NCBI GenBank assembly: GCA_947034885.2
Contig: OX344756.2
Location: forward strand, 21,187,489 to 21,251,488
Direction of reading: 5' to 3'
Source of the DNA: Thuidium tamariscinum
Taxonomy: Eukaryota; Streptophyta; Bryopsida; Hypnales; Thuidiaceae
Length of the DNA: 64,000 nt
Positions 11,201 to 63,144 of the stretch are shown in pieces. Position 1 is the stretch's first letter, and every line of letters begins with the position of its first letter. The notes below the pieces were generated by a model that was not told the DNA's origin, did no database searches, and saw nothing but the letters and a program-made list of their open reading frames with translations. A program made the translations under genes and the position numbers.

Positions 11201-12230
11201 ACCACTAATACAATGGAATGAATCAAAGCTTCAAATGTAGACAAAAATAAAATCTTTAAAGAATTAAAAATAATAATAATTTAAAGTTTTTAAATGGATT
11301 TTTTTCCCTACCCAATGACTTGTAAATTATATTAAAGATGGCATAACTTTTAGTCCTAAGCATCAATTGAAATGAAAATTATTTTCCTACAAAGCTAATA
11401 AGTTTTTCAATCTTCTGAGAAATTTCCACAAAGTTTCAATAAAAATTGAAGTCAAAGGAACCTATTCAAAATCCATTTTGTCCCCCTAGGGCACCATGGT
11501 CTTTTGGAGTTAAGATTAACCTTCAAAAAACAAAATGCAAAAAAATTCTTCATCCACTTTTATTGCAATTTAAAGGTGATGAAGCTCAAATCTAGTTAAA
11601 AATTCCTTGCACCCCTCACTCCATTGGAATAGTATCCAATCATTGAATGGCATTACAAAATTTGGTTCTAGTCACAATTGAATTGGTAGTTGAATTATGT
11701 GGTTAAAGTTCAACAATTGGAAGGGTTTCCTATGTGTTTTTTGGATTTGTATAGAAAAATGTCTAGTTTATACTAGATTGAAAAATGCATAAAAAAGCAT
11801 ATGTGATTTCAAACAAAGTATGAGTTCAAAAATTTTCAAAATTTTTCATACTATTTCCAAAAAATCACCAAATTACAACTAACCCCTCATCTTTCATTGG
11901 CACTTGAATTCCCCAAAGTGAGAAGAAAACCAAAACTAAAAAATGTCCTTTTAAAATTTGATATTCATTCTTATTAATTAATATTATCCAATCTTTCCAA
12001 GACAAGGTCAAGAAATAAGAACATTGTGATCATGGAGCTTTGTTCTAAGATCAATATTGTAGGACCAATCACCCCCTAACATCCCCACTCTAACCAAATC
12101 CTAATCGCATCAACCTTCATGATTCACTCTAATGCACATGACATTGTTGGGCTCGGGCCTTCACTTAGCAAGTCGAGAAATGCCTTCAACCTCTATATGA
12201 ATTATAACTGTTAGGTACTACCTTTTATGT
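8233..12230. other. AT-rich repeat-derived region
   Basis: No gene is seen. About 9830-10385 and 10900-11520 are two copies of a longer repeat also present at 1725-2290 and, inverted, at about 36490-36960. Shared motifs include CTAAGATGGGATT, CATAACTTTTG, and a terminal part ending in a CTTTAGG-type motif near TAA. At 9178-9242 there is an isolated end of the TAA-flanked family (GGCCTTGGTGCTTAGGGATT then AA). Short ORFs here lie inside these repeats. Confidence 0.5.
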
Positions 12231-21257: not shown

Positions 21258-21446
21258 CACTACAAGAGAAAGGGGTGTTTTAAGTAGCGTCCTAGACATC
21301 ATGTCTTTTAAGTAATGTCTTTTAAGTAAGGTTTTAAGTAAAATTTTACTAAAAAGACTGTCTTTTTAGTAAAATTTTACTTAAAACCTTACTTAAAAGA
21401 CGTGATGTCTAGGACACTACTTAAAACACTCCTTTCGCTTGTAGTG
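21258..21446. mobile_element. CACTA-type foldback MITE with GGG target duplication
   Basis: The element begins CACTACAAG and ends CTTGTAGTG, the hallmark of CACTA (En/Spm) transposons. It is flanked by GGG on both sides (21255-21257 and 21447-21449), matching the 3-bp duplication of that class. The whole 189 bp is one near-perfect hairpin: arms of about 93 bp meet at AAAAAGAC/GTCTTTTT. A related copy is at 63007-63144. If transcribed it would make a long double-stranded stem that could feed small-RNA production. Confidence 0.9.
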
Positions 21447-24389: not shown

Positions 24390-25790
24390 AAAAAATTATA
24401 GGAATGGATGAGATATTAAATTAGTTTGAATGTTCACTTAAATTTTTGATTTCTATCAACTTTGTTAATAGTGGGTGTAACCAACTTATAATTTATCAAT
24501 GAAGCACTATTCCTAATATGATTAAATATAGAAAATGATAAAATATTATCTACAATGGGGGATAAATCATGATAAATAAATGGTAAATTGTCAATTGTAG
24601 AGTATGGAAAAGTAGTCACAAACTTTTCAAATGTAGTTTTCAAGAAAACACTCATGGCTCAATATAATATTTATTTTGTAAAAAGATCACATTTGCATGT
24701 GATATTTACTTTGAAGATTAACCAAATTCAACCACACAAACAGTGAATTTGGTCACCTCATTATTATTATCTTTGGACAATTGCATTACTTGCATGCTTT
24801 TTTCTAAATTTTTCACAACTTGTACTTCAATCTTATTCAATTGGCAAGATGTCACAATTGATGTTTCTACATACCACATGATAATTTCACCACTATAATG
24901 TGTGACATTTCAGAAGTGTAGTTCACATTTTCAAAAAGTGATGTCACGATTGTGATGATTACTGTCTTCTCACACTTTAAATGTTTAAAAACATGACTGT
25001 TGTGACGGCAGTTGACATCATCTTGACTGCCTCCACTTCTAACTATCAATCAAAATCACGTAATTGTCTTCGAGCACTTCAAGTGTCAAAAACGACGATG
25101 GTTGTAACGGCATCTGCTATGATCTTGATTGCCTCCACTTTTGACTATCAATCAAAGTCGCGTAATTGTTTTCTAGCACTTCAAGCGTCGAAAAAGATAA
25201 CGGTTGTCGTGTTAGCTGCCATGATCTTGATTGCGTCCACTTCTGACTATCAATCAAAGTCGCGTAATTGTTTCTAGCACTTCAAGCGTTGAAAAAAATA
25301 ACGGTTGTAACAGGAGCTACCATGATCTTGATTGCCTCCACTTCTCACTATCAACCAAAGTCACGTAATTGTTTTCTATCACTTCAAGCATTGAAAAAGA
25401 TGACGTTTGTCACGGCAGTTGCCATGATCTTGATTGCATCCACTTCTGACTGTCGATCAAAGTCGCGTAATTGTCTTGTAGCACTTCAAGCGTCAAAAAA
25501 GTTGACGGCTGTGATGGCAGCTACCATGATCTTGATTGCTTCCACTTCTGACTATCGATCAAAGTCGCATTATTGTCTTCTAGCACTTCAAGTGTCAAAA
25601 AAGATGATGGTTGTGATGGCACTTGCAATAATCTTGACCACCTTGAGTATAGATCAAAGTCATGTAATTATCATGATTGCCATCATTGTACTTGCAACTA
25701 GTTGTAAGTGATTGTTGATGTTCAATTCAAAAGTAATCTATAATATTTACAAATGCTTACAAATAGGGGGTTGGAATTTAAATGATTAAT
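24390..25790. repeat. Dispersed repeat, copy 1 (contains 102-bp minisatellite)
   Basis: Many blocks match 37540-38780 in the same order and orientation. They include GAGATATT(A/G)AATTAGTTTGAAT, ATTTGCATGTGATAT versus ATTTACATGTGACAT, and ACTATAATnTnTGACA followed by CAGAAGTGTAGT. A shorter match to the left part is at about 56160-56260. The right part carries the expanded tandem array described separately. No transposon ends were identified. Confidence 0.65.
24930..25710 (+). repeat. 102-bp minisatellite, about 7 units
   Basis: The phrase GATCTTGATTGCnTCCACTT recurs at 25019, 25121, 25223, 25324, 25426, 25528 and about 25630, giving spacings of 102, 102, 101, 102, 102 and 102. Because 102 is a multiple of three, the + strand stays open across the array as a 34-residue repeat (core ILIASTSDYQSKSRNC, then LALQ.SKK). 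One missing T near 25270 shifts the frame and splits it in two. The open frame is probably a by-product of the period: there is no promoter, no neighbouring exon, and the sister copy at 38.4-38.7 kb is not open. Confidence 0.8.
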
Positions 25791-30440: not shown

Positions 30441-32139
30441 TTTCTCCCTTAAAATTTTCTCCATCTCCTTGACACCTCCCCTTTCCCATTGAACGCCTTC
30501 ATCATGGAATCCCTCTCAACCCACAAAATCCAAGCCCCACGCACAACCAGATTTCCCCCCGCACCCTGGCGCAGGCGAATAATGAATAGCGCACACTATT
30601 TCCGCACCCGCACTAATTCTCTGGACCGACACGCCCTCCCAGTCCCACCTACAGCGGCAGTCATGAGTCCCGCATGTGCCAGCCCGCCCGCCCGCCCGCA
30701 ACCGAATTCCCCTGCCGCGCCTGCCGCGCGCCTTCACAAGGGAGATCACGATTTTGCATCATTCGTGAATTCCCCCTCGCCATCGCCACTTGTTGCCGAG
30801 GAAATTCCGAGCAAGGGCTACGATCCAAGCTAGCCCGCGCTCGTAACCGGCAAGGATTCCCGTGGTTCCCACCCTCCGGCCCCGGAGACTTCTTCTTCTT
30901 CGTCTTCCTCGCTTTCTGACATTCTCGCAACAGTTGTGCACAGCAGTTGTGTCAGAATCCCGGGTTGCGAAGGACTCTTTGTCTCTCTCTCTCTCACTCA
31001 CTCACTCCAACTCACTCTCACTCGATTAAGCTTATGAGTATTTGACCGCGCGCAGCCCCGAAGCCTTGGTCATCAATCCGGTCAAGATTCGGGTGCCGCA
31101 GCATTGTGATCATCATCATGCAGCAGGAAACGCTGCAAGTGCTCTGCAGTCATGGTTGCTCCCACTCCCGAATACTCTAGACTTGTACAATAGATTTGGT
31201 ATCCGATTTGGAACCCGATTTAGAACCCGATTTGGAACCGGATTTGGCACCCGGCGATTGTGGTTTTGGTGGAATTAGAGGTTTGTGCGTTACGCGAGGA
31301 GCGCAGTGGGTGTCAGAGTGTGTCGGTTTGTTGGCAGGGGTTACTTCGTTTGCTCGTTGTCGTTGTGGCGGAGAGGGCAGATTGTGTGTGTGGGTTTGTT
31401 TGCTTTGATTGTGTATGTGTATTTGTGTGGAGGTTTGTGGGTTTGAGGGGTGGGTGGGGTCCCTGGTGCGGTATTTTGACTTGGGGTGTCAGAGAGTTCC
31501 GACTTCCGAGTCCGTCGCGAAGTTTAGCCCGCACGCGTGAGAGTTACGAGGGGGATCTTTTTGCGGTGGTGGTGAAGACGGGGTGGGGGAGCTACAGTAC
31601 TTTTGGGACTCCAAAGCTGCGTCACGACGCACTTATTATGCTGTTGCTTGCTGCTGCCGCGTTTCTTCATCTCCCACACCATCACTAAGTATCAGCTGGT
31701 GGTGGCTATCACCTTCTGTTGTGTCGTGCCTCTCTTCCTCTGTTGTCAACGAACGCGAAATTGGTGCTCTCATTGCCTCGGTGCTCTCTCTCGGTGTCAG
31801 TTCTCGTCTTGCTTCTCGTCAGCTGCTCTTCCTGAATTGGGGCAATTTCGGGTTTCGAGTTTAGCTTCTGAGGTTTTGTCCATTCACTCCTCTCGTTTGT
31901 GGGGCTTTGAAACAACACTGTGGCCCGTGAGTGCATTGTGCGTTAAGGCGGACGCCCATTGTAGTGCGCATTGCAGGATAGTAGTACGTGAGATTGATTG
32001 TGTCCGGGTTGCGGCGATGGTGAGCGCGTGGGAAGGGTAGTTGGAGGCAGGAAGGCAGTAGCTCGTGGTGAAGATTTGATTGATGGTGGCAATAGAACAG
32101 TGAAGGAGAGTCAAACACAACCGAGGGAGGAGCCCAACC
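30440..32139 (+). promoter_or_regulatory. Promoter and long 5' leader of the BES1/BZR1 gene (with upstream ORFs)
   Basis: The block from about 30480 to the ATG at 32140 is GC-rich, unlike the flanking DNA. A CT-rich run at about 30978-31023 (TCTCTCTCTCTC then CACTCACTCACT) is typical of plant transcription-start regions, so the leader may be about 1.1 kb. If unspliced it holds small upstream ORFs that begin with ATG: 31034 (3 codons), 31118-31180 (20 codons), 31638-31688 (16 codons), 32017-32040 (7 codons) and 32083-32103 (6 codons). Larger open frames on both strands here come from high GC and show no domain. A leader intron is possible but not placed. Confidence 0.5.
31193..31252 (+). repeat. 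12-bp minisatellite, 5 units, in the leader
   Basis: GATTTGGAACCC-type units lie end to end at 31193, 31205, 31217, 31229 and 31241, differing by one to three bases each. In one frame they read as a DLEP repeat, but that frame lacks a convincing gene context. The array lies in the presumed leader of the BES1/BZR1 gene. Confidence 0.85.
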
Positions 32140-33336
32140 ATGACGTCCGGGACGCGCCTGCCCACATGGAAAGAACGGGAGAACAACAAGCGCCGCGAGC
32201 GTCGCCGACGTGCCATCGCCGCCAAGATCTTCGCCGGGCTCCGTCTATATGGCAACTACAAGCTCCCCAAGCATTGCGACAACAATGAGGTCCTCAAGGC
32301 ACTCTGCGCGGAAGCGGGCTGGACCGTCGACGAAGATGGCTCCACCTACCGCAAGGTGTGCTTGCAATCCTCACGCCTTCACGTTTTTCTCAAGATTAGG
32401 GCTCACCCCATTGCCAATGTGTTCCCCATTTGTAACACCATTTGCGTTTGCATTGCATTGCAGGGCTCTAAGCCGCCGTCCGAGCAACGCATGGACAACA
32501 TGTGCACGTCCCCATCAGAGGTGAGCCCAGCGAGCTCCTACCCGGGCGCGACCGATGGCACTTCGCTCATTCCATGGCTGAAAGGCTTGGGCTCCAGCGG
32601 CACCAACAGCACGACCAGCAGCGCGGGCGGGGGTCTCCCGCCCTTACATGCGGGGTCCTCCAGTGCACCTGTCACGCCGCCCTTGAGCTCTCCCACGGGG
32701 CGCCATCCGCCCGTGAAGCCCGACTGGGATGGGATGATGATGATGCATCCCGACTCCTCCACCACGAACGCGTCCCCGTGGAACCACCACCCGTTCTTAG
32801 CTGCAGCCGCGGCCGCTGCTCACGCCGCGGCCTCCACGCAGTCGCACCTCCGTCCGGGCTACTGCGACACACCCGACGGCGCGCGCACACCCGTGGACGA
32901 CCATCCCGCCGAGCACGGCTCCCACGCTTCCCCGACCGCGCTCGAGTTCGCTAGTGTCGTCTGCTCCGCGAATTCCAGCAAGTGGGCGAACGGCGTGCGC
33001 GTCCGCACGGCGCCCACGCGACCTGCACTGGGTCCATTCCCGGCGGATCATCCCGAGACGACCACATTCTCCCATCCATGGCGACACCCCATGCAGAAGT
33101 CCATCAGCATGCCCGTGTCGCCAGTTTCTTCAAGGATGAAAGGTTCATTTGGGGAACGGCTCGGACGGTGCCCATCGGAACTCGAGCTTTCTGGTGGATT
33201 GGGATCGTTGTGGGAGCTTGAGGCTGCGCCCTCGCGAACAGAGCGAGTTGTTGGGGCCAAGCGCAAGCTCAGCGCGGATGATCTCGAATTAACGCTCGGA
33301 AGCTCATCGCTCAGAGCGTCACCAGAGCGTCCTTGA
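32140..33336 (+). CDS. BES1/BZR1-family brassinosteroid-type transcription factor (exons 32140-32355 and 32464-33336)
   Basis: The spliced product is 362 residues. The N-terminal basic DNA-binding region (about residues 10-70) has KERENNKRRERRRRAIAAKI, then the invariant-looking YKLPKHCDNNEV and AGWTVDEDGSTYRK. Exon 2 begins GSKPP, as in Arabidopsis BZR1 (GCKPP). Next come SLIPWLK (about 106-112), APVTPPLSSPT (about 140-150, the region that binds 14-3-3 proteins after BIN2 phosphorylation in Arabidopsis), many SP/TP pairs fitting GSK3 targets, an alanine run (about 185-195), SMPVSPVSS, and a C-terminal LELTL (346-350), the EAR-type motif that recruits TOPLESS corepressors. Family members bind E-box/BRRE promoter sites in the nucleus and control growth genes. 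The start at 32140 is chosen because the conserved domain follows within ten residues. In bryophytes the upstream hormone pathway is incomplete, so the hormone link is uncertain. Confidence 0.95.
   Translation: MTSGTRLPTWKERENNKRRERRRRAIAAKIFAGLRLYGNYKLPKHCDNNEVLKALCAEAGWTVDEDGSTYRKVCLQSSRLHVFLKIRAHPIANVFPICNTICVCIALQGSKPPSEQRMDNMCTSPSEVSPASSYPGATDGTSLIPWLKGLGSSGTNSTTSSAGGGLPPLHAGSSSAPVTPPLSSPTGRHPPVKPDWDGMMMMHPDSSTTNASPWNHHPFLAAAAAAAHAAASTQSHLRPGYCDTPDGARTPVDDHPAEHGSHASPTALEFASVVCSANSSKWANGVRVRTAPTRPALGPFPADHPETTTFSHPWRHPMQKSISMPVSPVSSRMKGSFGERLGRCPSELELSGGLGSLWELEAAPSRTERVVGAKRKLSADDLELTLGSSSLRASPERP
32356..32463 (+). other. In-frame, stop-free 108-nt intron of the BES1/BZR1 gene
   Basis: The intron starts GTGTGCTTGC after AAG and ends TTGCATTGCAG before GGC, exactly at the position of the conserved intron of this family (after TYRK). 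Its length is divisible by three and it contains no in-frame stop, so an unspliced transcript stays open and would add 36 residues between the DNA-binding domain and the regulatory region. The inserted stretch is hydrophobic and has four cysteines, unlike the rest of the protein, so it is an intron and not a lineage-specific coding block. Confidence 0.9.
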
Positions 33337-35912: not shown

Positions 35913-37890
35913 GGGGAACTCATTAACTTAATTGCATAATTTCTGCATCAAGTATTCCTTCACATTTTACACCTATATATAGAGAGAGAATTGCAATGTT
36001 AAAAAAAAAATTGAAGAATTTCTCAAAATTAAAATATGATGTCTATATCTACAAGAAGTTACTTAAATTGTTAGGGGTGTGGGTAATATCCTCTATCTTA
36101 GTGAGTGTTAAGAGAAAACTAGTTGACTGGAAGAATTCTATACTTGAATCTAATAAGGTTCCAATGTAAATGAAACAAGAAACTCAAATGGTAGAGTTCA
36201 AGTCACATGACTAGTTTTCAAACAAATAGCACTTTTGATGAAACAAACACTTTTTCTATGCTAAACACTAGACTAGTACTTAGGATTTGAAAAGGAAATA
36301 TTTCTTTAGCCAACCTTATAATATACTTTGCATTCTAGTAAAGAAGGCACAATTAAAACCATCTTTAGGAAGTCTTCATGGCATCTATTAAATTTTATAT
36401 ACATGCTATTTAAAAACCTACATACAATTTTCTTGCAACAATTACCTCCTAATGATATTAGCTTGTTCAAGTGAGCAAGCTCTTACAATCTCAATATTTG
36501 TCATGATTTTTTGAAAGTTTTTGTGAAGATAGAAAAATACATTAGCTTTCTAGGTGTATAATTTTTTATTTTGATCAATCCTATAGAGCAAAAGTTATAG
36601 TACAATAAGACCAAACTTAAGTTCAATGGGTTAAAAAAAACCCACAAAAACTTAAAATTAATTATTTTATTAATTATTTTATTATAGATTGTATTTCTAT
36701 GTATATATAAAACTTTGATTCATCCCATTAGGATTAGTGATGTGAAGTCATAGACAATCTTGTTTTTTGGAAGATTAAAGCATCTCCGTGAAAAAACCCT
36801 TGTAGGATTCATTTCCAAAGTCAACTTTCACAATTTTCTAATTTTTTGGAAGGTCAAGATCTCTAGCTAGAACAATCTCATCATTGAGATTAGTGTGTTT
36901 TAATTCTACTTTGGAGCTATTTTTAGTTTATTTTCTTCAATCTAGAACCTACTTTTTATCTAATAGTTTTTAAATAAGTGGAAATGAAGTGTGTTAAAAA
37001 CTTTCTTCTTCTAAATTCTTAACTCCATTCCTCAAACTAAGAATTGAGAAATTTGAAATTCATTGTGCAAAAATTCTAAACCAAGAATATTCAAATTAAT
37101 AAAATCTAGCCATGTAAGGCACGAAACAACTTGTTTCAATTACTTTTGAATGCAAACTTCTTGCAATTCACTTGGTCAAATTTCCTAAAAATAAATTAAT
37201 ATATTTTTACATTAGTCTAGTACAAGTTCATATGGTTAGATATGAATAAAATAATTTTAAAAGTTTGTTGCTCTTGAAATAGTAATGGCAATTCTCAATG
37301 TTTTTTGATGAAAAAAGGCCTTAAAACTTTAGGGGTTAAAGCAATGTTATGATTCCATGAAAAAACTAGTTATTGTATGATGGAATTAGCCTAGAAGCCC
37401 AAAAGTCAATTGACATAACAAATTAGGCTAATTGTAGGTCAATAGGAGGTTACTTACCTTCTTGGTTTTCTATTGTATGTTTGAAAATTGATTGTTCTAA
37501 AATTTTATCCCTCCACCTAGTCTTATAAGGTTGTAAAATACAAATTGGGGAGATATTGAATTAGTTTGAATACTCATCCAAGTTTTGTATCCTATACCAT
37601 CTTTGTTAGTAATAGATGTAAACAAATTATAATTTTTATCAAAAAGATATTATTTTACATATTGGAAATGATGAAATATGAGCCATGGTGGAGTAGTAAC
37701 ATATGCTGTAAACTTATGGTTCATTTATTAATTGTGGATAATTAAAAATGCAATTACAAATTTTTCAATCATGGTTATCAAAAAAAATATCCATGACAAA
37801 ATATAGTATTCACTTTGTGAAAATGCCACATTTACATGTGACATATATTTGAAGGCCAAACAAATTCAACCTTACAAACTAAATGAATTT
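35913..37890. other. AT-rich repeat-derived region
   Basis: About 36490-36960 is an inverted copy of the longer repeat at 1725-2290, 9830-10385 and 10900-11520 (reverse of CATAACTTTTGnTCC and of GAGATTGTTCTA). At about 37285-37344 there is an isolated TAA-family end (AAACTTTAGGGGTTAAAG). From about 37540 the dispersed repeat shared with 24390-25790 begins. No gene is seen. Confidence 0.45.
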
Positions 37891-38780: not shown

Positions 38781-39705
38781 TATAAGACAAATTGTAATTA
38801 TTTATTTTACTTGTCTATTATAATTATTTATCTTATTTACAAAAAAATGTGTTTGAATTTTAAAATTTTAAAATAATAATTACATTAAATTAGGATGTAA
38901 ATATATACATATACATAAATATACATATTGATTTAATGTGATTATAATTTTTAAATTAAAAAAATTTATGGAGAAAAAAATAAAAATTGTAAAATTTTGA
39001 GGTCAAATTTCAATCACTAAGATTTCAATGAGTAAAAAAAATCAAAACTCTTATAAATTGTAACATGTAATTCTAGTTAAGATATACATTCTTTCCATAA
39101 AAAGAAATTAAACATTTTGATTTTTCACAAAATTTTATTATTACATAAAAATTTCATTCAAATAATAATAGGTCTAAATATAATTTGTTCTAGGTGAAAT
39201 TAAAGTTGAGGGGAGATTCCCTTTTGTACAATAGCATGCCTAAATTTCACCTCATAATTTTAAAATCTCATATTGTATGGTATATATGGTAGTTATGGTA
39301 GTTGATTATTTTTTTGAGTCACTATATAACTAATACCTTAAACTTCCATATTTGATCATACAATAAATGCTATTATTGCATAAGAATTCTCTTTCACTTG
39401 CTAAGAAGATCTATCAAAAATCATTTCTTTCTTAATAAGAATGAAAATACTTAATTGCTTTTATGGGTGCTCTTTCCTTGGTTTTTCCTTAGTTGAAGTA
39501 TTAGCTTGTAATTTTATTTTAGCTTGGAGGTAAGAAAGGGGAGTGATTATTTTTTCATTTTGAAAAAGTTATAAACTATTTCTCTAGTACTTATGTGATA
39601 CTTTGGTAATACTAGGCAATATCTATAAGAAACTTAGGTGATATCCAAGTAACATTTGGCTATTGAAATTTAAAATACCAGTATTTTGTTAAAAAAGACT
39701 CTTAA

Positions 39706-40350
39706 CCCCTAATTGCCCAGGGCGCTAGAATCTAGTGTTTGCAAAACTTTGAAGTTAAATAAAACCTTACTAAGCTGCTATTTTTAGTAGTTTGTATTTT
39801 TGGAAAGTTCTTCTAAAAGTTTAGTTTTAGTATCAAAAATCCAATCTGAAAAATGAATGATAGTGATTTTTCTACACAAGATTTGTGCAAGGATACCCCT
39901 TGCAATCTTGACTTTCCATAGTGTTGAGAGGTCTTGAAAATGAGCCTCAAATACACTAGATCTTGGAGGAAAAATCACATTCAAAATTCATTTACAAAAA
40001 TTGTAAAGTAGATTTTGAGAAGCTATAAATTGATTGGAGTTATGCATGTTAGGCCCTTTCACCTCATATTTTTTTGGTCACCAACTTTTCAGATTTAACT
40101 TGCCAAAACAAGATAGAAACACTTTACATCACTTTTGTAGTTTTAACACCCTCGTGGTCAAACATTATAATCTTTCACTCCATAAATGGTATTGTTGTGT
40201 TTTCTTTTCCTATGTAATCTCTAACATGTCTAGTTTGAATTTGTATGGTTATAATTCAGAGAAAATTGATACAACTTATCAAAGTGTTGGCATTTTGTTC
40301 AACTTAGAGCAAATTCCAAGAAGCTCAAAACAGGCCTTGGGCATTTAGGG
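39706..40350. mobile_element. TAA-flanked inverted-repeat element (long copy)
   Basis: The left end is TTAA then CCCCTAATTGCCCAGGGC. The right end is GGCCTTGGGCATTTAGGG then TTAA, giving an inverted repeat of about 18 bp with four mismatches or fewer. At 645 bp it is longer than the sister-type elements at 3717 and 49512. The 104-codon frame at 40034-40348 lies wholly inside and does not resemble a transposase, so I do not call it a gene. Confidence 0.6.
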
Positions 40351-40492
40351 TTAAATTTCCTTCACAGAAAATGGCTTGTCGTGATTTCAAGTGGCGAAAT
40401 CTGGTGCTCGGAGGACTGGCCGACGAATTTCATCTCTTTGTGATTTCTGGTTCGGAATTTGTTTCGTTGTCTTGATGGCTGAAATCTTTCGT

Positions 40493-42323
40493 AGAGCCTC
40501 TGTCGCCTGATTTTCAGATTCTTCACCAATTTTCTGGGAGGAATTCGGGTTCCTGCAGTTTGAAGAACTCCAGTTTCAGAGCGCTGGCAGATTTGAAGAA
40601 ATGTTAGCAATGGCCAAGACCTTGAATTCGTTCTCCAGTTGCTTGGCTTCGCCGAAGAGGAAATGGACTTGTATCGCCTGGTCGATCACACCATGTCCTG
40701 AGCTTGTTTGAATTTGGCCTGAGGTGCTCTGGGTTTTAGGGTTCTTAGGGTTTAGGGTTTTAGGGTTTGCAATTGCGCCTCGTGGGGAAGGATGTGGAAA
40801 TGACAGGATGTGGACGGATGTGAGGATTTTCAGAAATGGTTGTAGGCAGGGATCCATGGTGTTGCAGCGAGCCAGACAACATTTTGAATGGGGAACAACA
40901 TTTCTCAGACCGTGGAGTTTAGGAGTTCTACTTGTGTTGCCGCTCACGTGATCTTTAGATTCGAAGGATCGAGTAATCAGTCTTCGTCAAGGACAAGATG
41001 ATCGAAGCCCTGAAACTCCGTTGCGAAGTCCAAGTGAAGGTTTTGACCTCGGAGTGTAGGAATGTGGTCCTGGGTGGGATCGCCAGGCTGACGCATGTGG
41101 TGTCTCGCCATCTCCTCTTGCAGCACCAGATTTACATGTCCGCTCGTTGGATCTTCACTCGCAGGTGTACTTTTAGCGTTGCTAGGGAGCATGAAACGTT
41201 GAGAGCTCAAATTCTCACATCTAATCCTTTCTTAGCAAAATATGGAGCTTTTTGCAAAGTTGAGCGCTGTGGGCTTTGTGATTGCTCTCCCTGCTTGGAG
41301 GTTTGCTCGATTGGGGTTTAGCAATTTCGGAGGGAAGCACGGACAGAGTTGGAAGTTGCTGAGTGTGAGAACGGGTGATGCTTTGTGTCTAAATTGAAGT
41401 CAAGAATGCGTTGTGTATTGTTCCTATGGATCTGTTTTGTGGGAACTTCTCTTTCTGAAGTTAGGCTGTAGCAATTTGGAACTGAGAAGAGGCACAGCTG
41501 AGAGGTAGCTCAGAACTGGCTGAGATCGATTCATGTATGATAGACTGAGGTTAGACTGACGTTAGGTTATGGAATTTGTTGCATGTATCCGCGTTGTTCA
41601 TGTCATTCCTTTGAGCTCTCTGTATTTGGGGTTTAGCAATTAGGTGGGCACTGGGCAGAGCAGACGCAGTTGCAAGGCAGCAGCAAATTTGCAGAGATTG
41701 ATCATATACGTCGCTTGGTGAATTCGAGGTTTAGTCTAGGCTTTTGTATCTGCAGATATTGGATTTGTTCGTGTGGAGTGTTGTGGTTCAGGGGTTTCTT
41801 GGTCTTCATTAGTTTCAACTTCCTGTAGAACTTTGTTGCTCTTCGCTAGAAGTATGAGCAGAAGTCCCAAAGAGATTGCTTCGTATGTGCTATAGGATAT
41901 TTTGTTTGACTCGAAGGGATTGTTTCGTATTAAGGCTGCCTACATCTGTGGTGGTTGATGTAGGGAACTGCTGAGGGTGTTTTCCCAGGCATTGGACTTT
42001 GGTGATGTTGAGATGGGGTTGATAAACAGTCCAAGGAAGGTTTGTCTTCCTGCCTGAAGGTTTAGCGTTTGGAGAAGAGAACAAACTTAGTTGAAAGGAG
42101 CTCATCGATACTTGTATACTGCGTTCTCAACATTTACTGAAGGTTTCAGAGACTGCATTCATTCTGAGAAAGAGGTCATCTTAACAGACAGAGAGCACTC
42201 ATTTGAAAGGGACCCGAAGACTTGAGGAGATTCGTTCATATGGTTTCTCTCGATAAGAAGTTAGATTTTGGTGAAACTTGTTGCAGAGGAATCTTGGGAG
42301 GTTTGTAGACACCGAGCTACAGA
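40493..42323 (+). promoter_or_regulatory. Promoter/leader region of the PDF-PPR locus
   Basis: The composition shifts to balanced GC at about 40380 and stays so up to the ATG at 42324. The whole block, apart from about 430 bp, is found again in inverse at 46910-48304, which shows it travelled as one unit with exon 1. Short frames inside (for example from ATG at 40855) are not conserved in phase between the two copies, so I read the block as leader rather than coding. A telomere-like cluster is at 40731-40768. Confidence 0.5.
40731..40768. promoter_or_regulatory. Interstitial telomere motif cluster (telo-box)
   Basis: Four GGGTTT(T)AGGG-type units occur in 38 bp (GGGTTTTAGGG, TTCTTAGGG, TTTAGGG, TTTTAGGGTTT). 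Telo-boxes (AAACCCTAA) are common near transcription starts of plant genes for translation and organelle functions. The inverted copy of the leader near 48000 keeps only one AATTAGGGTTT unit, so the cluster has grown or shrunk since the duplication. Confidence 0.7.
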
Positions 42324-42401
42324 ATGTCTGTAGTCATGCGCCTTTTATTGCGCCATAGGCAACAAACGAGGAGCTATATGGTGCGTGGAGCTGATGCACA
42401 G
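42324..42401 (+). CDS. Exon 1: organelle-targeting-like N-terminus
   Basis: ATG at 42324 opens a 26-codon exon (MSVVMRLLLRHRQQTRSYM...) followed by a strong donor, GTGAGT, at 42402. The peptide has five arginines, leucines and serines and no acidic residue until near its end, which fits a mitochondrial targeting sequence. The exon is supported independently by the inverted copy at 46853-46905, which aligns codon by codon but has a TAA in place of a CAA. The phase at the donor is 0. It can join in frame to the acceptor at 42712-42713 (CCAG/GGT) or to another in-frame acceptor a little further on; the exact junction is not certain. Confidence 0.6.
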
Positions 42402-42713
42402 GTGAGTGAGTGAGTGCTGATCTTTGGCCATACATCTGTTCTACAGAACTGTTATAGAGTAGCGCTTGGATGACTTGGAATTTGTGTACACAGAACCACT
42501 GTGTGCATGGTAAGAAAATATGTGTTTAATCTATTCAATCAGGTTCCTCCGCAACAATATTTGATTAATAGGATGCTACTGTCTTCCAAATCGACAGGAC
42601 ATGAATTTGGTAAAACATTAAATCCAAACATTTCATCAGAACTGATGAAAATCCAAAATTCAAGCTGCTATCAATGTTTTTTTTGACGCGTTGATGGGGA
42701 TGCTTGTGACCAG

Positions 42714-43448
42714 GGTCCCTGTGTGATCACACTCTTAAAGTCTCTATGGCGTGTACACCCTTATTTTTTATTGGTGTCGGGTTCCCATGGAGGTAGCAGC
42801 AGCGGAGAATTGAGGTGTTCATCGTCATCAGTTTGGAGAAGAGCATCAATGAGCACCAGTGCTTCAGGTATGTATCAGATGCCCATCTTCATGAGAAAAA
42901 GTGGGTGCTGTCTGTCTCTCACTGAAAGAATGTGACTGACATATGTGGTGTATGTTCCAGTTAAATCTGGCGAACTAGAGACAATCGAACAAGTTTGGGA
43001 GGAGTATTTCGCAGATCCTTTGCAGTGGTGGGATAACAGAGTTTGCAAGGTATCACTACGACTACCAATTAATTGATACATGAGAACTGCAGAAATCGGT
43101 CGGGATGGTATTTGTTGCTGGTTGAAGGTCTTGAGCGCTTTGAGAAACAACAAGCATATCGCATTCTTTGTGTGTTTTGGAGTGATGTGAGGGCTAATAT
43201 AATCACTACAATGTTTATCGAGATATCCCTTGATTAATTTTCGTATTTGATAGTTACTCGTGGTGCATACAGAGGGATCCCCAATTACCTGACTTCAAGC
43301 ACAAGGTGACGAAGAAAGCGCTTTGGACAGGTGCTGGGTCAACTCCACCATGGGTGAAGGCGATGCTCAAATTGGTAACTCATTGCAAATCACCATCTCG
43401 TGTTGGGAATCACACGAGTGGTTCTCAAGAGGTTGTACAACCAAACAG
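42714..43448 (+). CDS. OSB-type PDF-motif exons (42714-42867, 42961-43049, 43273-43448)
   Basis: Splicing three exons gives a serine-rich linker, then VWEEYFADPLQWWDNR, VCKRDPQLPDFKHK and ALW...PPWVKAML. This is the PDF motif of plant organellar single-stranded DNA-binding (OSB) proteins, which bind ssDNA in mitochondria or plastids and restrain recombination. WWDNR, PDFKHK, ALW and PPWV are the key blocks. Introns are 42868-42960 (GTATGT...CCAG, phase 1) and 43050-43272 (GTATCA...ACAG, phase 0), and both junctions fall within conserved sequence. The left boundary of the first exon is uncertain. I did not find the OB-fold domain that OSB proteins carry before the PDF motif. After 43448 the frame can run on to a TAG at 43519-43521 or splice (AACAG/GTATTG) into the PPR frame downstream, which keeps phase. 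Confidence 0.7.
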
Positions 43449-43781
43449 GTATTGGCTTGAGCATGATACCTCACGCCGTGCCACGAATGAATGCCACGAA
43501 ATAGCTCTGCTATCGATGTAGCTTACGTATTCAAATATGAAAGGTTGTGATTGGTCGGTTCGAGGATTGGCTTGTGCAACATTCTTTTCTTTGTCTGCTT
43601 TATGACATTCACTATGGGAGTGTTTATTAGGTTCATGTAAGAGCGATGACTATCTGCGAATGATTGTGCTCGTAAGAGATATTGTGCAATGCATAGATGC
43701 TTCCAAGTATTTGGAAAGTGGTTGGGTAAAGTTTTCCACGTTGCGAGGGTTGTTCTCATAACGAATGGATTGATGAGTCAG

Positions 43782-46284
43782 GTTACCCAAGGGCAATTTT
43801 GGAAGAAAAAACACGGTGCCCACTAGTGCAAGGGAATCAACGCAAACTGTTCGGGTTGGCGGAGGCAGTGTGCACCTGCGAAATGCGAAGACCACGAGTG
43901 AAGCAGTTGATGTTTTGAAGAACCGACTACAACAAGGCATAGGCATAGGATCACACATGTTTGTTGAAGTTCTGAAGCGGTGCTTGGATCAGGAAGACCT
44001 TACAGCAGTCAAGCAAGTTCATGAGTGCATCATTGAGAGTGGATTGCAGCAGAATGTATATGTGGCAAATCACCTACTGAGTGCCTACATCAAATGCGGG
44101 AGATTGGAAGATGCATACAGTGTGTTTGATGAACTTGCGGGGAAGGATGTATTTAGTTGGACCAAAATGATTGGAGGTTATGCTCAGCACAGCCGTGCAC
44201 AAGATGCGATGAAAGTTTTCAATCAAATGCGTCAAAAAGGTGTGCAGCCAGACGCAGTGACATACTTGAGCATCCTGAAGGCATGTAGCAGCCCATCAGC
44301 TTTAGACTGGGGCAAAGAAGTTCATGCGTATGTCAGACATGACGGCTTTGAATCCGATGTGCGTGTAGGGACTGCGCTTCTTAAAATGTATGCAGAGTGT
44401 GGGAGCATAAAGGAGGCAAGGGAAACCTTTGATAACTTGGCCACTCGTAATGTCGTCTCTTGGAATGGGATGATCAGAGCCTATGCAGAAAGTGGTTGTG
44501 GTGAGGAAGCTTATCAGTTGTTTCTCCGAATGAGACGGGAAGGCTTTAAACCAGATGCAATCACTTTCAGGAGCATCCTGAATGCACATGCTAGTGCAGG
44601 GACATTGGAGTGGGTGAAGGAGGTTCACAGGCATGCCCGTGAAGGAGGACTTGAGTTAGATGTGCGTGTGATCAATGCGCTTCTTCACATGTATGCAAAG
44701 TGTGGCAGCATCAGTGATGCACGACTAGTTTTTGACAAAATGGGTGAACGCAGTGTAGTTACTTGGACTGCTATGATTGGTGCATATGCTGAAACTGGGT
44801 GTGGTGAGGAAGCATATCGATTGTTCCTCCAAATGATAGAGGAAGGCCTCTCACCAAACGCTGTCACTTATATGAGCATCCTGAATGCGTCTGCAAGTGC
44901 AGGGGGTCTGAAGTGGGTGAAAGAGGTTCACAACCATGCTCGTGAAGGAGGATTTGAGTCAGATGTGCTTGTGGGAAATGCGTTGGTCCACATGTATGCA
45001 AAGTGTGGCAGTATCGACGATGCCAGACTGGTTTTTGGGAGAATGGAGCAGCGCGATGTGAGGACATGGACGGTGATGATTGGAGGACTTGCACAACATG
45101 GATGTGAGCGTGAAGCATATGAACTTCTTCTCCAAATGAAACGGGAAGGCTTCAAACCTGATGCATTTACATATGCGAATATCCTGAATGCATGTGCAAG
45201 TGCAGGGGCATTGGAGTGGGTGAAGGAGGTTCACAGCCATGCTCGTGAAGGAGGCTTCGAGTCGGATGTGCGTGTGGGCAATGCGCTGGTCAACATGTAT
45301 GCGAGGTGTGGCAGTGTCGAGGACGCGGGACTAGTTTTTGACAAATTGGAGGGACGAGACTTGTATACATGGACTCTAATGATTGGCGCATATGCTGAAA
45401 GTGGGTTTGGTGAGGGGGCATATGAAATGTTTCGCCAAATGATTAAGGAAGGCTTTAAGCCAGACGCAGTGACTTACGTGAGCATCTTGAATGCATGTGC
45501 AAGCGCCGGGGCTTTGGAGTGGGTGAAGGAGGTACACAGGCATGCGCAGGAAGCGGGATTTGAGTCAGATGTGCGTGTGGGAAATGCGCTTGTTCACATG
45601 TACGCAAAGTGTGGGAGCATCGATGATGCTCGACTAATGTTTGACAGAATGGAGATCCGGGACTTGTTTACCTGGACGGTGATGATTGTTGGACTTGCGC
45701 AACATGGATGTGGTTCTGAAGCTGTAGAATTGTTTCGGAAAATGAATGCTTCCGGTGTGAAGCCCGATGGGCACTCATTTGTGGCTGTTTTATCGGCCTG
45801 TAGTCATGCAGGCCTTGTAGATGAAGGTCGGCGACTGTTCCAAGCCATGTCGCAAGATTACGGCATCGTTCCCAGTGTGCTGCATTGGAACTGCTTAGTA
45901 GACATTCTTGGACGTGCAGGGCGCCTGGAGGAAGCCAAGCTCGTGATTGATAACATGCCAGTGGGACCAGATGGAGCAACTTGGGGAGCGTTGCTCGGTG
46001 CTTGTAGATCTTATGGTAATTTGGAGTTGGGTGAAATTGCAGCCAAAGAGCGAGTGAAGTTGGAACCTAAGGATGCTTCTACTTATATGCTCCTGTCCAA
46101 CATCTATGCTGCAGCTGGGAAGTGGGAGGACGTGTCGTCTGTGCGCGCTATGGTGCAGGAGAGAGACTTATGCAAGGAACCCGGGCGCAGCTGGATCGAA
46201 GTGGATGACACGATTCATTCCTTTGTTGTAGGGGACACTTCTCACACGGCATCAAAGGAGATATATACGGAGCTGAACAGATGA
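43782..46284 (+). CDS. PLS-class PPR protein (main body, ends at premature TGA)
   Basis: Numbering from 43816, the frame has six L-type PPR motifs with starts at residues 81, 182, 283, 384, 485 and 586, exactly 101 apart, each followed by S and P motifs (for example VRVGNALVHMYAKCGS, TWTVMIGGLAQHG, VTYVSILNACASAG). An E region (about 720-785) and a PG box (KEPGRSWIEVD, 787-797) follow. Such proteins bind organelle RNA, and with a DYW domain they deaminate C to U. The frame stays open upstream to a TGA at 43774 but has no ATG before residue 48 (43957), and a GTG at 43816 is not a plausible start. An acceptor at 43780-43781 in the correct phase therefore suggests it is a downstream exon. The TGA at 46282-46284 replaces a codon in a conserved LNR-x-TEEIK segment, with recognisable DYW sequence continuing after it. 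Confidence 0.9.
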
Positions 46285-46588
46285 ACTGAGGAAATCAAGG
46301 CTGCAGGCTACCTTCCCGACACGCAGCTTGTGTTGCATGATATTGAAGAGAAGGATAAGGAGTCTTCTCTTTGCTCTCGATAGTGAGAAGTTGGCTATCG
46401 CATATGGACTTATCTGCACTCCGAGGAGTGAACCAATTCAGGTTTACAAGAACCTTCGAGTGTGTCCAGATTGTCATACTGCAACCAAATTGATTTCTAA
46501 AGTGACTAGGAAAGTGATTGTGGTCCAGGATGCTAATCGTTTTCATCACTTCAAAGATGGCGTGTGTTCTTGTAATAACTATTGGTGA
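46285..46588 (+). pseudogene. Broken DYW cytidine-deaminase domain of the PPR gene
   Basis: After the TGA the same frame reads TEEIKAAGYLPDTQLVLHD and on to LCS, then hits TAG. The rest continues one base out of phase (about 46380-46588) with EKLAIAYGL, LRVCPDCHTATKLIS (CxxCH), ANRFHHFKDGVCSC and the end NNYW. One extra base at about 46379 explains the shift. It falls in the codon for the histidine of the HSE motif, which holds the catalytic zinc in DYW deaminases. With one nonsense change and one frameshift, no full-length active enzyme can be made from this sequence as read. Sequencing error cannot be excluded, but two lesions close together in otherwise clean sequence suggest real decay. 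Confidence 0.85.
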
Positions 46589-46852
46589 TCAATCTGGCGA
46601 ATCCGGATTAGTGGTGACAGCTCAGGTCAAGTTTCTTGGAACCTTCTCGTTGATTCTTGATTTCGAAGACGTGCACACAACATAAACGGTTTTGTCGTGG
46701 AAGAGTTTGTCAAATTTTGGTATTACCATCTAACTTAGATCTGAGGAGCGCAAGAGATGAACCTGTTTACTAAAATAATTTGCCACCGAAATAAGCTGCC
46801 CAATTTGCCTAATCCCGGAACTAGCAGTTTCAATTTGATTTTCAGCAGGAAA
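46589..46852. other. 3' region of PPR gene up to duplication breakpoint
   Basis: No frame of note is present. It includes the end of the PPR transcript presumably; no AATAAA is obvious, though AT-rich candidates exist. The inverted duplication begins at about 46853, inside its copy of exon 1. Confidence 0.4.
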
Positions 46853-48304
46853 TAGCTTCTCGTTTATTGTCTATGGCGCAATGGAAGACACATGACTGCA
46901 GACATTCTGGCTCTGTGTATACGAACCTCCAAGGATTCCTCTGGAACAAGGTATCACCGCATTTCAACTTCTGATCTATAGAATGCATATGAATGTATCT
47001 TATCAAGTCTTCGCCTCCCTTTGGAGTGTATGTTCTCCGTTTGTTAATACTAAACAAACTCTTCGAGTTGAAACGAAATACGAAGTATCGTGTAGCACAT
47101 GAGAAACAATCTCTTCTGCTTCCTTCCGACTCCACCGGTTCGATTCTCCACACCACTAGACCCTAAGACCTCCAAGCGCGGAAGAACAAACAATAGCAAC
47201 AGCTCAACATTGAAATAAATAACTTCCAATGTACCCCGCTTCCGGAAAAAAATTAACTAGAACCTGATTTTGAGATAGAGGAAGTTTCAAATATGAATTT
47301 CTCGATCTCCAAGGTTCTTCTACTCCCATAGAGGCGTAGCTTCTTCCATAGCCAGCAAGAAACACTGCACCGGATATTCCTACTTGTGCAGGTACAAACT
47401 TCTACCGAAAACTGAAAGCAAGGAAGAGCCAGAATCCTTAAACGACAACCCCTCTTCGCGAACACGTCTTCGAAAACCCTGACTAAACTTCGACTTCAAC
47501 CGAGACACCCAACATCACGCGAAGTCTGCAAAGTCTGATCAATCTCTGCGCTCCCTTGCAACTGTATATGCCGTCTGCCCACGAATTGCGCTACGCAAAA
47601 CAGACTCGGACATGTAAATCTGGTGCTGCAAGAAGGAATGGCGAGACACCACATGCGTCAGCTTCACGATCCCACCTCAGGAACCCTATTCTTACACTCG
47701 GAGTTTGATTCCTCCATTCGCACTTCGCAACGGTGTTTTTGGATTTCGATTTTGTCCTTGATGAGGTCTGAGAATTCCGTTCTTCGAATCCAAAGATCTC
47801 GTGAGTGGCAAACCGAAGCGGAACTCCCAAGGGCTGAGGAATCCTGGTCCCCATAAATTCAAAATGGTGTGTCTGGCTCGCTGCAACACGTACCATGGAC
47901 CCGTGCCCACAAACAATTCTGAGAATCCTCTCACTCCTCACTCATTAAGCTCTTGTTTCATACTCCTTTCTCCCCAGGACGAGCAATTTGAAACCCTAAT
48001 TCAGAGCATCTTGGGCCCAAATTCATGCAATCTGAAAACATGGGAATCAATAAAGTTAAGCGATGCAAGACCATTTCCTCTTCGACGGACTAAGCAAAGA
48101 AATTGGGGAAAGAATTCAATTCCACAGAAGATTGATGTTCGCCATGATTGACACAATAGTTCTTCAAATGGGTCAAACACTCTGAAATAGAAATTCTTCA
48201 AATGGGCCAAACACTTAGAAACAGAGGTTCTTCAAACTGCAGAAACACTTCGACTCCTCCCAGAAAATCGGCGAAGAATCTGAAATTCTGGACTACAGAG
48301 GCTC
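46853..48304 (-). pseudogene. Inverted degenerate copy of the PDF-PPR leader and exon 1
   Basis: Read on the minus strand, this is the leader of the PDF-PPR locus followed by exon 1: ATG at 46905-46903 then codons matching MSVVMRLLLRHRQQ with substitutions. TAA at 46866-46864 replaces the second CAA. Homology stops within exon 1, so no PDF or PPR exons follow. The various frames on both strands here (for example 47591-47941 on -) are not shared in phase with the left arm and are not called as genes. It is a truncated duplicate lying head-on to the 3' end of the intact copy. Confidence 0.8.
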
Positions 48305-48839
48305 GGAGGACGAATTGCTCGACTAAACCGAAGAAAAATTTGGTTGAAAAGGGTCCAAACAAGAAATCGGGTACAATATGAGGACCCCGCCTTTTTATCA
48401 TTATCATTTGAAATTGAAATGCATCCACATTTGTTGGGTGTATGATGTTTTTAAAATCTACAAACCATATAAATGCATCAAAACAAAGCTGCACTATATT
48501 TGGTTATAAAAAGAAGAGGTGATTGGATTGCATTTTTCTTTGACCCCAAACCTACCATATCAAAAGATGTCCACATTGATATTTTTTTTTGGCATTGTAT
48601 TTAAGATTAATAAATTTACTATTGAAAGTAAACTTCCATATTGCACTAGAAATTGAAACAAATTTTTGAATTTTCTAGAATTGACTTGCCTTTGCCAAAT
48701 TTCACAAAGTTTTGACTTCTATTAACTCGTATCAAGAGTAGGTTTGCCTTGCTTTCAAACTAAAGGTTATAGCCTAATGTGAAAGGTAGTTTTCTGGAAG
48801 TCGGTATATTCCCTATCCAGTTTTGCAGCTAACATCCAG
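48305..48839. other. AT-rich spacer, nothing recognised
   Basis: Composition returns to AT-rich after about 48370. No repeat or gene is recognised. Confidence 0.4.
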
Positions 48840-58640: not shown

Positions 58641-60960
58641 TCCAGGCCTCATATTTTTCTTTTTTTTACTTATTCCTCACTTTTAGGGTTATTATGGTTA
58701 AAAAACAACTAAAAAAAATATTTGTAGAATGTTTGGAGGAATTCCCTATAACCATGGGGAATTGGTTAGAATGATCCAAAAGATCTCTAAGAACTCCTTC
58801 AAACTGGTTTTTAAGGTTTACTTAGGAATTAGAACATGGCTTAGTAGTTTAAAAGGGGTTCAAAGCAAATTGCATTCTAGAAACAATTTTAGAGTGAAAA
58901 CACTAAAAATTGGTCCTTATCAAAATTCTTACAAATGGACTTGACATTATTAGTTCCGATAGCGTAAGTGAAAGTCCAATAGATTCCTAAGAACATTTGC
59001 AAGGAATTTCCCTAGACATATTCCGACTACACAATTTGGAAGACGTGGACATTCATATACATTTATAAGAAAAATCTTGCAAACATAGATAAACTGCCAC
59101 CAAGGAGAAAAGATAGGTGTTTCCAGTATGAAAGCATGTAACAGTGTAGTCAGTTTGGGAAGATTTCCTAGTATGAGAATGATTCCTCTCTATAAGAATT
59201 AATTTCACAAATGTCCATTGTATATTTTATTTAGAAAGTGTGGTTTTTCAACAAAAAAATTTACTTGACTTCAGAAAGCTTCCTAAAAGTTTCCCAAAAA
59301 GTTTCGTAATTTTTTGAACTACAAAAATGACTCCACAGGAAATCAATTTCCTTTACTGACAATTGAAAATTTGTATAAAATTCCCTAATAGTAGTGAAAT
59401 CCCACTAAAAGTTAGGATAGTATGTTTTAGCATGAATAAACACCTCAACAAGTATATTCCAACATCAACAAGTACTAGGATCAACAACAACAATGACTTT
59501 TAATGGTTTTACCAAAATCTTCGTAAGTTGACCAGCGTATGTGGAGCATACATACAGTGTCCGATTTGAGTTGAATTAGACTCTTTCTAAACATTCTTGG
59601 ACCTCCCTAAAAACCCAGGCTAGTCAAAAATTTTGGAAAAAAATCATTTCCAAAAGTTAGATTTTCTATCATTTTCACTGGATCTTAGAGGTTAGCTTTC
59701 AAGCGCAATTTAGCCCTAGGAATAAGGGTCAAGGGTCATTCCAAGTTCATTTTGGTCTTTCAAAGTCAATGGCATTATCCATTTGGCAATTTAAGCATTT
59801 CTCCAAAAGTTAGAATAGTCATAACAATAGTGTAGAATTTTGAATGTTAATTTTGATTTTTCTTAGGTAGATTATCAAGTAATTTGAGGAGGGAGGAGGC
59901 CTTGGAAATGTATAGAAGGCCTCCCCTTCCCCTCACTTCACATCCCTTTTGTTTTATCAAAAAACTTTTATGCATTATTGCACTCATGCCAAATGTATCT
60001 AAATTTCAAGACTCTGTTGGTATTTTCAAAACCAATCCTTTTCCATTATAATTTGACTTCAATTGTATTTTCAAGCATTTTTTTATGTCTTAGAGAGCTC
60101 ATTCAAGGGATTTTGGGATTCCATTGAAGTGCTTTGCAAGTGTTGTTGTGCCTTCAAGTGTATTAATCATTGTGTGTATTGTGGTTCCTTGGAGTAGTGA
60201 TATCAACAAATTTTCACTTAGGCTTTTAAAATGGGATTCAAAACCTACATTTGTTTAATCAAAAATCCTCCAAAAGCCTAGACGTTGAATTTGTGGTCCA
60301 AATAGTATTTTTTTAAGAATTTTGGGTTGGATCCAAGCTCTTAGTGTCCTATGTGTATCAGAACTCTTGCAAAATTGTTCCAAAATTTGAGGTTAATCCC
60401 TCTAATACGGTGAAGTTATTGTCTTTTTTGTTCTTTTGTAATAGAATTCTTCCAAATAGTATTCAAAATTTGAGCTTAAAACACCCAAATGGCAAAACTT
60501 TGCTCTTGAATAGAATTTTCCATCTTTGTTTTGTGTTAAGGGGTCCCCCAAACAAGACCTAAAGTATTGGATTAAATTCCAAAAGTTGGACTAAAAACCA
60601 AAAAATTGGCAACAATTGCTAAGGTCCAAAGATTGGTCATAGCATTGTTTGTGGTCACTATCTCGCAACTATAATAAGGCCAGCAATCACGGTAAAGGGC
60701 CAACAGCCATGACAAGGGCCAACAGTTTACAGCAGGGATCAGAGTCATGGCACCTTGATTAGGCCAATTTGATATACATATATTGGTTTGAAAAAAAATC
60801 AAAATTCAGGGATGATGCTATAAGGCCCCTATTTTGCTTCTTAAATTGATTTTTTGTCAATCTAGTAAAATTGGGAGTTCAGATTAAACTAGTGAAGGAA
60901 TGAGATTTTTTCAAAGTTCAAATAAACTGAGAGGAGGTTGGAATTTTCAGACCAAATTGA
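58641..60960. other. AT-rich intergenic region, no gene
   Basis: The longest frames are about 70-76 codons and show no domains. No repeats with clear boundaries were recognised. Confidence 0.4.
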
Positions 60961-60989
60961 AGTGATTCAGACCAATACCAAATTGAATT

Positions 60990-61935
60990 TGCAAATACTA
61001 GATTGAATTGAGTTTGCAATGTCAACGAATTGAGTGATTTGACAATTTGGACAAATTGAGTTGAGTTGGAATTCAACAGACTGAAGTGATTTGGCAATTT
61101 GGACTAGATGGAGTTGATTGGAGTTGATTGGAATTCAAACAGACTAAAGTGATTTGACGATTTGGACAAACTGAGTTGAGTTGGAATTCAATAGACTGAA
61201 GTGATTTGGCAATTTGGACTAGACGGAGTTGATTGGAGTTGATTGAAATTCAAACAAACTGAAGTGATTTGACAATTTGGACAAACTGAGTTGAGTTGGA
61301 ATTCAACAGACTGAAGTGATTTGGCAATTTGGACAAGACAGAGTTGATTGGAGTTGATTGGAATTCAAACAGACTAAAGTGATTTGGCATTTAGATAGAT
61401 TGAAATGACTTGGCAATTTGGACTAAACGGAGTTGATTGGAGTTGATTGGAATTCAAACAAAGTGAAGTGATTTGACAATTTGGACAAACTGAGTTGAGT
61501 TGGAATTCAACAGACTGAAGTGATTTGGCAATTTGGACAAGACGGAGTTGATTGGAGTTGATTGGAATTCAAACAGACTAAAGTGATTTGGCATCTAGAT
61601 AGATTGAAGTGACTTGGCAATTTGGACTAAACGGAGTTGATTGGAATTCAAATAGACTAAAGTGATTTAGCAATTTGGATTAGACTAAGTTGATTGGAGT
61701 TGAGTTGGAATTCAAAACAGCTTCAAGTGATTTGGCAATTTGGACTAGACTGAGTTGATTGGAGTTGATTAGAATTCAAACAGACTAAAGTGATTTGTCA
61801 ATTTGGACTAGACGAAGTTGATTAAAGTTGATTGGAATTCAAATAGATTGAAGTGATTTGGCAATTTGGATTAGATTGAGTTGATTGGAATCCAAATAGA
61901 TTGAAGTGATTTGGCATATAGACAGAATGAAGTTG
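60990..61935 (+). repeat. Satellite-like array with 115-bp higher-order unit (52 + 63 bp)
   Basis: GTGATTTGRCAATTTGGAC marks unit starts at 61034, 61086, 61149, 61201, 61264, 61316 and 61379, alternating 52 and 63 bp. The pattern resumes at 61468, 61520 and 61583. After 61379 and 61583 an extra 25-26-bp piece (GGCATTTAGATAGATTGAAR) is inserted, making a 141-bp variant. Every unit contains GGAATTCAAA or GGAATTCAAC. The array fades by about 61935. Confidence 0.85.
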
Positions 61936-63003
61936 GATTGGAAAATTCAGCATATTGGTTGTAGGGTGATTGCACAAAAGACCTATACTATTTGTTGCAT
62001 TTTGCAATAGTACTCCTGATTTTTTTTGAAGTACTATTAAATTATAAAATTAATTTTAAATTAAAAAAATATGACCTATGTATACACCTTTAAGATGAAG
62101 GTATCCATAGAAGGAATTGTATAGGAAAATTTTCTAAGTAGGAGAACTTGAAAAGTACCAAACCTCAAGAAAATGCATATCTTCATGTTTTAATTAGGGA
62201 AAAATAGTAAAAAATAAGTAAATACAAAAAATAAAAAGTTTCCATTTGCAACAACTTTATAGAGATGGTCATTCACCAAAAAACTCACCAAAATAATATT
62301 TTATATGTTTCAAAATTCAAGTAGAAGGAAGCTCACTTTGTAGACTTCTACACGATATAAAATCAATTATTTTCAAAAATCCTTCCTTAGAGAGCTAGAA
62401 GTCTACTAGAAGACCATTCCATCCAAATTTCATCTTAAAATCATTAAAAGAAAAGGTACTCCTTAGTACTAAAAAACTCCAAATTGTCATATGTGACATT
62501 CAATCACTAGTACTATTTTTATATTAAAATATTTTTGAAAATTATGAAAAAATTATGTAAGGTGTATGATAGTCATGAGTACCTTTTCTAAAAATCTTGA
62601 GTCATTTGGAGCAAAAATGCAAAAGTTATGGTCAAAACACAGATCAGTATAATACGTGTGATGGAAAATAATACAAGTCTTTCATGCAATTGCCATGTAG
62701 TATTTGGAAAACAACTCATTCAAATCATACGCTAGACCCCCAAAATCTCCACTTGTAGACTCCCAAGCTTTGCTTTCAACATCTTGAGCATCAAATCAAG
62801 TGTAGAACAAATACAATTGAAGAACCTAACTGGAGAAATTAGCAATTAGTAGTAAGAGAGAGAAGTTTTAGTTGCACATGCTTTAGTCTTTAGAGAATAT
62901 ATCCCATCAAACAAGGTTGGGATTTTTCATTAGAAAATATAGCCCCATCAAACAAAGTTGGAACTTTCTTATAAGACAAGTAGATACAACAAATTTAAGG
63001 AAT
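61936..63003. other. AT-rich intergenic region, no gene
   Basis: No gene or bounded repeat recognised. A short repeated phrase (ATATAGCCCCATCAAACAAnG) occurs at 62900-62960. Confidence 0.4.
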
Positions 63004-63006
63004 AAT

Positions 63007-63144
63007 CACTACAAGAGAATGGGGTCTTTTAAGTAAAAAGACAGTCTTTATAGTAAAATTTTACTTAAAAGACGCACTAAAAGACATTACTTAAAAGACA
63101 TGATGTTTAGGACACTACTTAAAAGACCCCATTCTCGTGTCGTG
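63007..63144. mobile_element. CACTA-type foldback MITE (copy 2)
   Basis: It begins CACTACAAGAGAATGGGGTC and ends in the inverse with two changes (CGTGTCGTG in place of CTTGTAGTG). The inside shares TTTTAGTAAAATTTTACTTA and AAGACATGATGTYTAGGACA with the copy at 21258-21446. At 138 bp it is shorter and its 3-bp flanks (AAT and AGT) no longer match, so it is an older or rearranged copy. Confidence 0.8.

Follow-up and report, generated by a model that had tools for sequence, protein, structure and literature searches.

The window, i.e. the whole stretch of 64,000 nucleotides of Thuidium tamariscinum DNA that was analysed, carries a candidate gene of five exons on its plus strand, followed by the remains of a deaminase domain. 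Exon 1 (42324..42401) provides an ATG and 26 arginine-rich residues with a possible function in organelle targeting. Exon 2 (42714..42867) is rich in serine and offers an alternative start, MSTSAS, at residue 72. Exon 3 (42961..43049) encodes the first part of a putative PDF motif (VWEEYFADPLQWWDNRVCK), and exon 4 (43273..43448) encodes the remainder (RDPQLPDFKHKVTKKALW...PPWVKAML) and then a linker. The proposed intron 4 (43449..43781) forms the join between the PDF and the PPR parts; a TAG at 43519-43521 would end any read-through. Exon 5 (43782..46284) starts right behind the AG at 43780-43781 and encodes 20 PPR motifs, the motifs E1 and E2, a cut E+ motif and a TGA. The adjoining DYW deaminase remnant (46285..46588, plus strand) continues past the TGA in the PPR frame for its first third and is frame-shifted thereafter.

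The sequence of the five joined exons was rebuilt and amounted to 3000 nt, corresponding to 999 residues plus the TGA at 46282-46284, without interruption. An earlier note on this DNA had described a single open frame of 1000 codons up to the TGA at 46282, and this frame was recovered in full. The sequence thus does contain the splice sites, the phases and the open frame. Among random stretches taken from the initial 40 kb of the window, 0.55% were open over 165 codons and 6.1% over 60 codons; these figures overstate the support for the exon model, because the splice sites had been picked to avoid stops. Scoring of splice sites was done with general plant splice weights. Equal or higher scores were reached by only 0.06% of the GTs in the window for the exon 1 donor (CAG/GTGAGT) and by only 0.03% for the exon 2 donor (CAG/GTATGT). 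The exon 3 donor is the weakest of the four, and 4.9% of the window's GTs score as well. Codon usage was tried as proof of coding and rejected. A first signal, in which the value of exons 1-4 joined was reached by 2.6% of random stretches, came only from penalised stop codons. When stop codons were omitted, the claimed frame ranked 1, 3, 2, 3 and 1 of six for exons 1, 2, 3, 4 and the beginning of exon 5, respectively, and 11.5% of random open joins equalled exons 1-4 joined. Since the signal disappeared in this way, codon usage gives no support to the exon model.

The motifs of exon 5, which are contiguous and whose borders were set by eye, follow the order L1-S1, five times P1-L1-S1, P2-L2-S2, E1, E2 and a cut E+. 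By the PPR code for residues at positions 5 and last, U or G would be read by the six S and P motifs among motifs 11-18. Profile matches were obtained for PPR_2 (PF13041; E = 1.3e-110), for the E_motif (E = 2.9e-20) and for Eplus (3.9e-06; 26.9 bits at a cut-off of 24). The Eplus profile was covered only at positions 1-21 of 28, so the E+ motif is severed by the TGA. By its tandem P, L and S motifs, the predicted protein can be assigned to the PLS subfamily, and the succession of E1, E2 and E+ ahead of a DYW domain corresponds to the layout expected of a DYW-type protein. The best-scoring solved chain was that of 9kfx, a synthetic PPR-DYW protein, which matches residues 326-835 of stretch P0001. 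Comparison of five PPR units with each other showed mainly silent differences, with dN/dS values of 0.16-0.37 for eight of ten pairs, dS being not computable for the other two; such values would speak of past rather than present constraint. No relatives of the PPR part were found in a viral-contig collection, a result of little weight as this collection holds no plant genomes.

The leader encoded by exon 1 contains five Arg and one Asp among its 26 residues. It had been called targeting-like, which applies to its Arg-rich composition; its amphipathicity does not exceed that of shuffled sequences, 39% of which reach its hydrophobic moment, and the hydrophobic moment was therefore discarded as a means to identify a targeting peptide. 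In exon 2, 14 of 51 residues are Ser. OSB proteins, which bind single-stranded DNA in organelles, are defined by an SSB-like domain plus a PDF motif, the latter being a plant organelle DNA-binding motif. Residues 89-139, derived from exons 3 and 4, form a single stretch of 51 residues with a Pro-Asp-Phe signature, in which WWDNR, PDFKHK and PPW presumably resemble the PDF consensus. For OSB proteins, a PDF motif of 50 residues with this signature is described in the text of PMC6963530. On length, signature and consensus, exons 3 and 4 are read as encoding one putative PDF motif.

No Pfam family was detected in the N-terminal part of 166 residues up to an E-value of 1; for the PDF part, Pfam has no fitting model. 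An SSB-like/OB domain was detected by Pfam neither in the N-terminal part nor in the three forward frames of 39000-43340, a search which an OB domain split by introns could escape. The sole match of the PDF part in the PDB was at chance level (E 0.59). Relatives of the PDF part were absent from plasmid, phage and viral-contig collections and, for exon 4 alone, from genome contigs; these are non-plant collections and carry little weight.

The join itself would use the donor at 43448 and the acceptor at 43782. Within 43370-43781 this donor has the top score (4.01; runner-up 2.65), and the acceptor has the top score within 43500-43959 (2.23; runner-up 1.30). The two sites had been claimed to be compatible in phase; they are in frame, and the pair ranks first among 170 donor-acceptor pairs by splice score. 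As the frame is preserved by 52 of the 170 pairs, the phase match alone contributes a factor of about three. Upstream, the PPR frame is limited by a stop just in front of 43777, and its first ATG is located at 43957. The stretch from the acceptor to this ATG comprises 58 residues; a count of 47 residues without ATG, given previously, has to be corrected. A gene model that links the PDF exons with the PPR frame scores highest, and the join would have a slightly better than even chance of being made in the mRNA. The proposed fusion of an OSB-type PDF motif with a PPR protein is retained in part: the join is the best-scoring model and the PPR frame would otherwise be leaderless, but no SSB-like domain was found, so that the layout combines PDF with PPR and falls short of a complete OSB fusion.

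The same interval could instead separate two adjacent genes, an arrangement that we consider unlikely but serious. A short PDF protein would then end at the TAG, up to which exon 4 does stay open, and the PPR gene would either have a first exon of its own in the interval or start at 43957. A start at 43957 would keep almost all of the first PPR motif, costing only two of its residues, yet would leave no leader; the small loss weakens one argument for the join. For a first exon belonging to the PPR frame alone, an ATG exon within 43440-43956 can be paired with an in-frame acceptor in 148 ways. The best of these (ATG at 43602 or 43614, donor at 43636, acceptor at 43782) scored 4.89, compared to 6.24 for the fusion, and the 12 best-scoring first exons listed encode only 5-17 residues. 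The acceptor at 43782 is common to both models, and it is the donor that favours the fusion (4.01 vs 2.65). Moreover, a border between two genes is not indicated by signal motifs: AATAAA, ATTAAA, AATAAT and TATA[A/T]A do not occur in 43449-43957, where a single AATGAA was found at 43486.

The gene is flanked by an inverted duplication that was recognized by self-comparison of the window. In the left arm (40494..42384, plus strand), matching blocks fall in the upstream region, in the 5' leader and in exon 1, most of which is included. The right arm (46845..48304, minus strand) lies across the gene from the left one and is a decayed inverted copy, in which the copy of exon 1 contains an in-frame TAA. 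Identity is 67% over 40494-41142 and 78% over 42181-42384, with two weaker blocks between; the block at 42181-42384 is the best kept and spans the leader together with the greater part of exon 1. The duplication is old. A Pfam search of both arms in their sense orientation (plus strand, 39000-43340; minus strand, 46590-48589) found no domain up to an E-value of 1, which is relevant to a reading of these blocks as a mobile element. The minus-strand copy is oriented toward the PPR frame's 3' end; should promoter activity persist in the right arm, antisense RNA might be made from there, which is a guess.

Elsewhere in the window, which has a GC content of 36.4% and contains no Rfam families at gathering scores, several further features were recorded. 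An open frame with the N-terminal domain of BES1/BZR1 transcription factors (5.6e-45) is located at 32104-33336. Two overlapping direct-repeat arrays, 69-80% alike, occupy 60853-61957 and 24963-25675. A near-palindrome (82%) at 21258-21446 has a second copy, 77-88% alike, at 63028-63144 close to the window end. Dispersed repeats at 1692-2280, 9464-11522 and 36476-37364 are 64-67% alike, some of them inverted, and possibly represent a mobile element.

The DYW remnant was recovered in two pieces. Profile positions 1-24 continue the PPR frame beyond the TGA and scored 15.6 bits, short of the 24 bits set as cut-off; positions 21-93 were matched in the shifted frame with E = 6.3e-32. The first piece also matches residues 514-542 of PDB 9kfx chain A (3.8e-07), the second residues 535-612 of the same chain (1.2e-30, 108.7 bits). 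From this remnant past the TGA it follows that the gene derives from a DYW editing factor. The earlier note, whose coordinates take in the remnant, had mentioned neither it nor the inverted duplication. Its lesions comprise the TGA, one frameshift and a His-to-Asp exchange in the active-site HSE; the CPDCH stretch is retained. An intact DYW deaminase has both HxE and CxxCH; the HxE is lost here, and the deaminase is very probably dead.

These lesions also bear on whether a protein is still made. A decaying pseudogene, formerly a PDF-PPR-DYW or PPR-DYW gene and no longer expressed as protein, would be in line with the stop, the frameshift and the lost His of HSE, as well as with the nearby inverted copy of the 5' region, itself decayed. 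Against it stand about 834 codons of exon 5 plus four upstream exons without stops in the joined frame. The two frame-breaking changes (TGA and frameshift) are at the border of or inside the DYW stretch of 304 nt, and none occurs in the approximately 3.0 kb upstream. Two lesions thrown evenly over the gene would cluster in this way with a chance of about 0.01, a figure that is based on only these two lesions. The clustering is a weak hint that the remainder of the gene is still kept, and decay of the whole gene is judged improbable. An error of sequencing or assembly in the DYW part, the true gene being a full PDF-PPR-DYW editing factor, would agree with the remnant's nearness to an intact DYW domain (108.7 bits to PDB 9kfx), but is very improbable, as stop, frameshift and His-to-Asp exchange all lie in one short stretch and the far longer PPR tract is free of stops and frame breaks.

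The preferred reading, to which a probability of about 0.52 was assigned, is that exons of an OSB-like gene were joined to an intronless PPR-DYW gene and that editing has since been lost. The 5' exons of an OSB-like nuclear gene, comprising a leader and one PDF motif but no SSB-like domain, would be spliced to an intronless PPR-DYW frame. The PPR part may have come in as a copy lacking introns, placed next to the OSB-like gene or inside one of its introns, and may have taken over that gene's leader. The resulting protein would be targeted to mitochondria or plastids. Autonomous editing would be gone with the loss of the deaminase, because of which the protein could no longer edit alone. Its present role may be that of a site-specific RNA-binding factor, e.g. 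in group II intron splicing, as for the PLS-type proteins PpPPR_9 and PpPPR_31 in Physcomitrium. The PDF motif would either add nucleic-acid affinity or persist as a linker. Points against the fusion reading are that a phase match is expected by chance in about one of three cases, that the clustering argument has a basis of two lesions, and that exon 1 is not significantly amphipathic. The gene could also be silent. A PPR tract reading RNA and a PDF motif holding single-stranded DNA might together bind R-loops at chosen sites of the organelle genome. This role is conceivable because OSB1 of Arabidopsis is reported in PMC8330923 to limit mitochondrial R-loops; its likelihood is rated low.

If the join is true, the gene has a PPR domain layout of which no description was found in print, and would be a concrete example of an editing factor in which catalysis was lost and a second nucleic-acid-binding part acquired. 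Its product would be an unusual putative binder of both RNA and DNA. Pfam-based annotation would overlook the PDF-PPR layout, since the PDF part has no fitting model there. In addition, this moss would have a PPR protein that retained E1-E2 after loss of DYW, whereas only P, PLS and DYW types occur in Physcomitrium patens (P. patens) as classified in a 2022 review (PMC9459714).

No PDF-PPR fusion was found among open-licence PubMed Central papers, judged mostly by listing. Table 1 of PMC9459714 covers at least 107 PPR proteins of P. patens, none of which is given a PDF or OSB domain there. Fusion of a PPR tract to another domain is shared with PPR proteins carrying RRM, LAGLIDADG, SMR, NYN, CBS or SAP domains; the PDF or OSB domain of the gene presented here is absent from the list of extra-domain PPR proteins of P. 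patens in the same source. In length and in its Pro-Asp-Phe signature, the putative PDF stretch of 51 residues is like the 50-residue motif reported for OSB proteins (PMC6963530). In contrast to these proteins, the gene has no detected SSB-like/OB domain and a long PPR tract downstream; the one OSB recorded for P. patens in PMC4166229 has an SSB-like domain and one PDF motif.

Among the PPR proteins of P. patens, six are listed as PLS-type in PMC9459714, and two without DYW are reported there to act in splicing. The moss splicing factors PpPPR_9 and PpPPR_31 resemble the gene in having a PLS tract without a working DYW domain; unlike the gene, both are entered in that review's table with neither E1/E2 nor an extra domain. 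The nearest moss PLS-DYW editing factor is PpPPR_78, likened here by published motif order rather than by sequence. It has 20 motifs (PMC7190159), and the order L1-S1, five times P1-L1-S1, P2-L2-S2, E1, E2 given in PMC9459714 Table 1 is identical to that of exon 5. Two comparable L motifs have VD and VP in the gene and ID and VT in PpPPR_78. The differences in layout are that the DYW domain is functional in PpPPR_78 and broken in T. tamariscinum, where a putative PDF motif is located upstream of the PPR tract.
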